Source of the DNA: a virus
Reading direction: 5' to 3' (one strand)
Length of the DNA stretch: 33,889 nt
IMG/VR virus record: IMGVR_UViG_3300042868_007409
Coordinates: 1 to 33,889 of that record
Under the pieces are notes generated by a model, which was not told the DNA's origin, made no database searches, and saw only the letters and a program-made list of their open reading frames with translations. Numbering within the stretch: position 1 is the stretch's first letter; the number at the start of each line of letters is the position of its first letter. A program made the position numbers and the translations under genes. Shown here one piece after another: positions 22,093 through 28,910 of this stretch.

Positions 22093-22135
22093 AGATCTCT
22101 AAGCGAGATCTATTGAGCGTCTGTCGCCGCTCAAT
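22093..22135 (-). other. Two abutting perfect hairpins upstream of the DUF3820-like gene
   Basis: AGATCTC-(5)-GAGATCT at 22093-22111 is followed without gap by ATTGAGCG-(8)-CGCTCAAT at 22112-22135. The arms of 7 and 8 bp are perfect. On the plus strand a T-rich stretch follows; on the minus strand none does. They may end or process the structured RNA or control the DUF3820-like gene. Confidence 0.6.
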
Positions 22136-22144
22136 TTGCTCTTG

Positions 22145-22585
22145 TTTGTTTTTGTTTAGAGAGGTGGGCGATGTGGAGTCAGAATCACGCTATCCAAGCG
22201 TGATTCTTGTGCTGGGCAGCATCATCAGATCCATACAAACACACCATTTCAGGCCGGGCAGGTTTTGCGATCTCCCGTTTCAGTGTCCATCTTACGCACA
22301 GCACAGCAGAGTATGGAGTCTGGACTCTGTGCTGATATGAGGTAGTCTTTGTCAGACCGTGTTTCTCATTCACTTTGACAACCTTTACGATTGAGCAAAC
22401 TTCTGACCGTAGGGCTGAAGTTTTAGGCATCCTTTGGGGTAGTGCTCAAAAGCCCGACAACAGCAATCGGATTTGGCTACCGTCACACATCAGAACGGAT
22501 TCACCAGTGGTATTACAATCGGCCCACCAACCTTGTGCTGTTTTTCAACAAATAAAAATTATTTGTTTTTGTATTCCTCTCTAGT
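22145..22585 (-). ncRNA. Large structured non-coding RNA candidate (about 430 nt)
   Basis: A CTAAATA box at 22590-22596 predicts a start near 22585. The 5' TAGAGAGG (22583-22576) can pair with CCTCTCTA at 22164-22157. Next, GGTGGGCCGAT (22528-22518) pairs with ATCGCCCACC (22172-22163) with one bulge, so the ends close on each other. Inside lie hairpins 22547-22567 (9 bp), 22391-22449 (7 bp plus 6 bp), 22349-22381 (6 bp), 22299-22334 (11 bp with a 3-nt bulge) and 22181-22207 (11 bp, 5-nt loop). No credible protein is encoded. The family is not recognised. The 3' end is not fixed; it may continue into the hairpins at 22093-22135. Confidence 0.65.
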
Positions 22586-22589
22586 ATTG

Positions 22590-22596
22590 TATTTAG
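22590..22596 (-). promoter_or_regulatory. T4-late-type promoter, CTAAATA (minus-strand RNA)
   Basis: CTAAATA with no ATG or Shine-Dalgarno in a useful position downstream; instead it opens the structured RNA. It is divergent from the box at 22646-22652. Confidence 0.7.
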
Positions 22597-22645: not shown

Positions 22646-22652
22646 CTAAATA
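22646..22652 (+). promoter_or_regulatory. T4-late-type promoter, CTAAATA (plus-strand RNA)
   Basis: CTAAATA followed by GTAGC. The predicted +1, G22658, is the first base of the helix that closes the downstream RNA, which supports the spacing rule. Confidence 0.7.
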
Positions 22653-22657
22653 GTAGC

Positions 22658-22868
22658 GTCAGTGCTGAGAGATGTTGTTCAATCGCGAGCAGTGTCTTAA
22701 ACGCAGAGGCAGGTTGGGTCTCCCTCCATCGTCCTGAAGGTAAAGTGTTAGGTCATAGTTTTTGGAGTCCTTTCTAAGTTAGTCTGTTTAATTGCCATTT
22801 TACAGAGTCCTATACCAACCCCAGCACCGACACTTATACAAAAAAGCAGCCCCAGGGCTGCTTTTATT
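22658..22868 (+). ncRNA. Structured small RNA candidate (about 210 nt)
   Basis: It starts five bases after CTAAATA and ends at the terminator at 22842-22865. GTCAGTGCTG (22658-22667) pairs with CAGCACCGAC (22822-22831) with one mismatch. Inside, GGTTGG (22712-22717) pairs with CCAACC (22815-22820), and TTAAAC-GC-AGA (22697-22707) with TCTGTTTAA (22783-22791). The last two helices cross, so a pseudoknot is possible. There is no open frame with a plausible start. No tRNA or tmRNA features were seen. Confidence 0.65.
22842..22865. terminator. Bidirectional intrinsic terminator
   Basis: AAAAGCAGCC-CCAG-GGCTGCTTTT has A and T tracts on both sides. It can end the plus-strand RNA and, from the other strand, the HNH gene whose stop lies at 22864-22866. 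Confidence 0.88.
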
Positions 22869-23791: not shown

Positions 23792-24046
23792 ATGTTAAAA
23801 GCAGTTGGAACAACAATGGTTATCGAGCGAGTAGCCGGCACCAAAACTACCCAGGGCGGTATTATTTTACAAACAGAACAACAGCGTCCCAATGCTCGTG
23901 TGCTGAGTGTGGGCCCACAAGTAAAGGAAGATATCTCCACGGGAGACATCATTGTTGTGGATTGGTCAAAGTGTGGCCATTTTGAACATGAAAACCGCAC
24001 TTATCACATTGTGGATGAAAGCACTGTGTTGGCAGTGCTGGAGTAA
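23792..24046 (+). CDS. GroES-like co-chaperonin (Cpn10)
   Basis: 84 residues with AAAGGA before the ATG at 23792. MLKAVGTTMVIERV, the mobile loop region TKTTQGGIILQ, then NARVLSVGPQVKEDISTGDI and the ending YHIVDESTVLAVLE follow the Cpn10 pattern in order. It is about ten residues shorter than bacterial GroES. Phage co-chaperonins (T4 gp31 is the known case) adapt host GroEL to fold the capsid protein, and the DUF5309 capsid here is a reasonable client. It ends back to back with the Dps-like gene. Confidence 0.8.
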   Translation: MLKAVGTTMVIERVAGTKTTQGGIILQTEQQRPNARVLSVGPQVKEDISTGDIIVVDWSKCGHFEHENRTYHIVDESTVLAVLE

Positions 24047-24478
24047 TTAACCCAGGGTGCTGTCCAGCATCCAAATTGACTTGGCTATGTCCAACACTTG
24101 TTCTTGGGCATAGTTGGCAATTTCTTGATGGCCTTCACCTTCAGCAATCTCCATGAGTTCTTGATAACAGCCACGTAATTGATCCAGGTTGTCTCTCACA
24201 GAAGCCAGCATGTCATCTGCTGATCCGTCTTGCTCATCATCGGCAATTTGACTCATGGCCAACACATCCGCAATGCAGCAGGGCATGAACTCGCCTACAG
24301 TGCGAATCAATTCACCCAGCACATCAATTTGGGCTTGACGGCGTTCATACACACCTTGCAGCAGTTTGTGATCGCTGCGGAAGTTGCGGCCTGTGATGTT
24401 GATGTGTGCAACATGGCTGCGGAAGTAGGCCACAAAGTTGTCGTTGAATACTTGTAAGAGTTGTTGTGCTGTGTTCAT
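24047..24478 (-). CDS. Dps-like ferritin-fold protein
   Basis: 143 residues. HINITGRNFRSDHKLLQGVY, then QAQIDVLGELIR, follows Dps. The ferroxidase ligands H25, H37, D52 and E56 all stand at the family spacing (12, 15 and 4 residues apart). The C-terminal helix (MLASVRDNLDQLRGCYQELM) completes the four-helix bundle. It may bind iron, detoxify peroxide and protect DNA. It starts in an ATGA overlap with the small Lys-rich gene and is co-transcribed with virion genes, so it could be packaged. Confidence 0.8.
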   Translation of the reverse strand: MNTAQQLLQVFNDNFVAYFRSHVAHINITGRNFRSDHKLLQGVYERRQAQIDVLGELIRTVGEFMPCCIADVLAMSQIADDEQDGSADDMLASVRDNLDQLRGCYQELMEIAEGEGHQEIANYAQEQVLDIAKSIWMLDSTLG

Positions 24479-28903: not shown

Positions 28904-28910
28904 TATTTAG
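28904..28910 (-). promoter_or_regulatory. T4-late-type promoter, CTAAATA (ejection-protein operon)
   Basis: CTAAATA with a leader of about 17 nt containing AAGGAG before the ATG at 28881. It probably serves the genes down to the Dps-like gene at 24047. Confidence 0.75.

Follow-up and report, generated by a model that had tools for sequence, protein, structure and literature searches.

A stretch on the minus strand of a 33,889-base IMG/VR virus record (positions 22160-22546 of the window, by which the entire record is meant) encodes a genuine structured RNA, about 400 nt in length, which is located between an HNH gene and a gene of 62 amino acids, whose fold is kept across dozens of phages and whose 5' domain of about 150 nt is a distant relative of the Polynucleobacter-1 RNA (RF01718). 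The first-pass annotation had proposed a large structured RNA on this strand, a proposal borne out by covariation in relatives, as the test for compensatory changes in an alignment of relatives, named beforehand, came out clearly positive. The two pseudoknots, the link to RF01718 and a further structured RNA adjoining on the plus strand had been missed.

Relatives of the large terminase occur at 80 loci; of these, L046 and L031 alone resemble the window over the RNA at the DNA level, with the similarity of L041 confined to the adjoining upstream element. A 26-base core without differences between the window, L046 and L031 was made degenerate and served as a pattern to scan 2.9 million viral contigs of IMG/VR, which retrieved 34 loci (contigs); blastn against annotated phages and plasmids gave four chance-level hits and no true match, and patterns derived from the Rfam consensus yielded no hits or hits at chance level. 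By inspection, the RNAs are of two subtypes, type 1, to which the window and about a dozen further RNAs belong, and type 2; both have the 5' 150-190 nt in common and differ in their downstream parts, with L095, on a T4-like contig, as a diverged member. The structure was assessed on two alignments, A2 with the 5' domains of 26 relatives and A3 with type 1 at full length in 11 relatives (Table 1).

The hand-written structure of the 5' domain, comprising 34 pairs, is paired in 95.4% of the cells of A2, and 24 of the 34 pairs have changes on both sides (181 such cells). With partners moved by 1-3 columns, pairing dropped to 28-49% and the covariation score to 0.06-0.11 from 0.517. Helices P6 and P7 lie inside P5. 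The pairing of the leader with the P4 loop, PK1, is found as AACAGCA/UGCUGUU in the window, UAUAGAC/GUCUAUA in L104, UAUCAC/GUGAUA in L111, AACAGG/CCUGUU in L114 and CUAUCG/CGAUAG in L095, and the mean score of a leader with its own partner, 13.07, compares with 10.28 ± 0.39 for permuted partners, the maximum of 301 permutations being 11.77.

For type 1, the full-length structure of 45 pairs, PK2 included, is paired in 90.2% of the cells of A3 with 25 pairs changed on both sides, while slid versions reach 30-46%. A structure derived from the same sequences is favoured in such comparisons with slid versions, but the observed count of compensatory changes was reached in none of 500 shuffles. PK2 connects the P9 loop with a downstream strand in 11 of 11 type-1 RNAs by 7-9 bp in four sequence classes. 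Both predicted pseudoknots, PK1 and PK2, are supported by the relatives. The internal hairpins described earlier are real, for example the perfect 3' terminal hairpin, which was left out of the covariation evidence as its type-1 alignment had been out of register. The 'paired ends', on the other hand, find no support in the relatives: the 8-bp outer closing helix TAGAGAGG/CCTCTCTA is present in the window, but relatives display only ad hoc complementarity at this place. Two short hairpins 3' of the RNA may belong to the transcript or mark its end. In many phages, two short and perfect hairpins of varying sequence, such as ATTGAGC..GCTCAAT followed by AGATCTC..GAGATCT, are located 3' of the RNA.

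Table 1. Features of the two structured RNAs and their surroundings, in positions of the window.
Feature	Position	Strand	Basis or remark
Structured RNA core, type 1, about 387 nt	22160-22546	-	A3 alignment of 11 relatives
Conserved 5' domain, common to all subtypes	22383-22532	-	RF01718 match 22388-22534
CTAAATA promoter-like box	22590-22596	-	Motif enriched upstream of relatives' RNAs
PK1 5' strand AACAGCA, leader, pairs with P4 loop	22536-22542	-	Permutation score
PK1 3' strand UGCUGUU, in P4 hairpin loop	22459-22465	-	Permutation score
P1, 22528-22524 with 22510-22506	22506-22528	-	5/5 pairs covary
P2 (GGU/GCC), encloses P3	22475-22505	-	A2 alignment and covariation
P3, CCGU/ACGG, nearly invariant loop UUCUGAUGUGUG	22498-22495/22483-22480	-	A2 covariation
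P4 hairpin, 22470-22467 with 22457-22454	22454-22471	-	A2 covariation
P5 long-range helix, UUGAGCA 22449-22443/UGCUCAA 22397-22391	22391-22449	-	7/7 pairs covary
P8, AUGAG 22369-22365/CUCAU 22341-22337	22337-22369	-	100% paired in 11 relatives, four sequence classes
P9 hairpin, loop holds PK2 5' strand	22301-22332	-	A3 covariation
PK2 5' strand UCCAUAC	22311-22317	-	A3 covariation
PK2 3' strand GUAUGGA	22230-22236	-	A3 covariation
P11, CGGG 22277-22274/CCCG 22258-22255, around conserved GCAAAACCU segment	22255-22277	-	A3 covariation
3' terminal hairpin, perfect 11 bp	22181-22207	-	Window sequence; equivalents in relatives by eye
Two short hairpins (GAGC..GCTC, AGATCT..AGATCT) 3' of RNA	22093-22135	-	Relatives
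Second structured RNA	22658-22831	+	Closing helix 22658-22667 with 22822-22831
TAAATA box of second RNA	22647-22652	+	Closing helix starts about 5 nt after box
Terminator-like inverted repeat 3' of second RNA, in window	22842-22865	+	

The RNA had been left unassigned among the large orphan phage RNAs, but its 5' domain can be assigned. While an Rfam scan of the window at gathering score gave no match, a permissive scan gave one meaningful match, to RF01718, over the whole model (1-141) with 36.1 bits (E 6.3e-6), 0.9 bits short of the gathering score of 37; the family search of the whole record gave E 4.4e-8. The model alignment and the independent covariation structure agree in the order and position of the helices, and the CACUA..CC..GGA segment is likewise common to both RNAs. 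R1, a covariance model of this RNA built without L095, finds L095 (E 2e-8 and 4e-10), and as L095 also clears the RF01718 gathering score (38.7 bits), it passes both models and bridges the two. Canonical RF01718 copies are not recognized by R1, with a best score of 4.5 bits at another place in L127 and none in L147-L150. The sub-gathering match and the blindness of R1 to canonical copies suggest that the window RNA, which also has another 3' domain, is a homologous sister of RF01718 and not a member.

A contig of 299,983 bp possesses a type-2 RNA and, elsewhere, a canonical RF01718 copy (112.5 bits). A pattern from the 3' part common to this copy and L095 identified three more contigs (26-91 kb), each with RF01718 at 108-120 bits, and phage contigs with RF01718 copies span 26-300 kb. 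Upon alignment, RF01718-type copies show strong conservation for about 250 nt past the end of the Rfam model, which indicates that the Rfam entry represents only the 5' third of the RNA. In L127, L095, L147 and L149, genes for SegE-type GIY-YIG endonucleases end shortly before RF01718-type RNAs, preceded by a recombination-nuclease-like gene in two of the four, L127 and L095.

With respect to transcription, the promoter box of the first-pass annotation stands only in part. The sigma-70 match TTGATT-17-TACAAT (22614-22586) does not exceed chance, with 1 match against 1.9 expected, and was rejected, but a CTAAATA box fits a motif of the relatives, of which 14 of 26 have a TAAATA box in the 115 nt that precede the RNA, compared with 7.4% of random windows. 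The probable transcript start, as judged from the box, would be near 22583. The box at 22595 resembles boxes before several genes, some of which overlap stop codons. A CTAAATA or TAAATA box, which recalls the T4 late promoter TATAAATA, recurs before many genes and both RNAs, with copies on the minus strand at 28909, 23273, 22595, 21870, 19947, 15548, 13475 and 8252 and on the plus strand at 22647 and 23294, some of all these copies overlapping stop codons.

The second structured RNA, of about 175 nt, adjoins the first one upstream, is unrelated to it and is conserved in six other contigs. Its closing helix and three hairpins covary, with 99.5% of 200 cells paired and 15 of 29 pairs changed on both sides (slid controls 31-48%). 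As the consensus fold contains 1 A-C cell on the plus strand and 16 on the minus strand, this RNA is assigned to the plus strand; it is probably transcribed divergently from the first. None of the 4227 Rfam families matches it, also in a permissive scan. Elsewhere on the record, phage-encoded genes for a GroES-like co-chaperonin (23792-24046, plus strand) and a ferritin-like (Dps-type) protein (24047-24478, minus strand) adjoin each other.

Concerning its role, the RNA, about 400 nt in length, is likely a stand-alone, trans-acting non-coding RNA of the phage. The covarying parts, which are the conserved 5' domain P1-P7, related to RF01718 and with PK1 as the link between leader and P4 loop, and in type 1 the 3' domain P8-P11 with PK2, would fold compactly in an RNA transcribed alone from the phage CTAAATA-type promoter and acting in trans during infection. 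The constant functional core would then reside in the 5' domain, to which the 3' domain would add a subtype-specific module, in an RNA that may work as a large free-standing phage RNA, as GOLLD and ROOL.

Polynucleobacter-1 has been judged to be probably an RNA and probably cis-regulatory ('cis-reg? y' in the table of Weinberg et al., 2010; PMC2864571), in a work where cis-regulatory calls usually rest on the position upstream of genes (PMC2864571). By analogy, the RNA could be the leader of the downstream gene, as in the window and several relatives the next gene 3' is small, PF12843/ExoX-like and of the same orientation, and a PF12843-like gene so placed in about a third of the loci counts against a stand-alone RNA. 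A leader is nevertheless unlikely. The downstream genes vary between phages, and hairpins, often with a new TATAAT-like box, are located between RNA and gene. In L109 and L123, genes on both flanks are on the opposite strand, the gene after the RNA in L123 encoding a fatty acid desaturase, while elsewhere the neighbours differ; such opposite neighbours in several phages argue against the published cis-regulatory assignment.

An RNA element that travels with homing endonucleases (SegE GIY-YIG, HNH) and is perhaps catalytic or intron-like has little probability. An HNH gene adjoins the RNA in the window, as do SegE GIY-YIG genes in L094 and L095 and, by sequence, in L127, L147 and L149, and the RNA is patchily distributed among TerL relatives; however, such endonuclease genes are common in phages, many loci are without an adjoining one, no intron family matches and the intergenic RNA interrupts no gene. 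That the region is coding sequence or a collection of chance hairpins can be dismissed with near certainty, as, despite an open reading frame of 81 amino acids (22185-22430) and a merely modest folding anomaly of the single sequence (z -2.42; 3 of 100 shuffles equally stable), the extensive compensatory change already in the 5' domain refutes it, the frame, the sole one present, is truncated to 0-23 amino acids in 24 of 25 relatives, none of the frames is conserved among these 25 and its region has no protein family match, in line with the earlier statement that a credible gene is lacking.

Beyond the stand-alone RNA itself, we tentatively consider that large phage RNAs of this type might form a widespread superfamily, with Polynucleobacter-1 as no more than their 5' tip. 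Such an RNA might operate on its own, perhaps as an oligomer, as an RNA machine in the infected cell, its 5' core being constant and its 3' modules exchangeable, and would here be paired with a second divergent structured RNA. In contrast to its Rfam description, the orphan family of 2010 is re-described as an RNA about three times the length of the entry, which unrelated phages carry, among them T4-like ones of up to 300 kb, and for which the role of a cis-regulatory leader is improbable. Another class thereby joins the small set of large ornate phage RNAs, and its pseudoknots are defined in enough detail for the design of probing and cryo-EM constructs.

RNase P, tmRNA and group I introns had been noted as absent, in agreement with the Rfam scans, which gave no match, and with ARAGORN, which found neither tRNA nor tmRNA in the window. 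The likeness to GOLLD and ROOL suggested earlier is one in kind and not in membership, as neither matched when all 4227 families were scanned, even with E values of up to 10 admitted. GOLLD and ROOL, large RNAs from phages and prophages whose function is unknown, assemble into homo-oligomeric cages (PMC12286853). With about 400 nt, it is smaller than a ROOL of 659 nt and many GOLLD RNAs of over 800 nt (PMC12286853), and unlike these it is accompanied by no tRNA genes in the window. Similar is the nature of a large pseudoknotted phage RNA which, like GOLLD, where a conserved region stands beside a less conserved one (PMC12286853), combines a conserved with a less conserved part.
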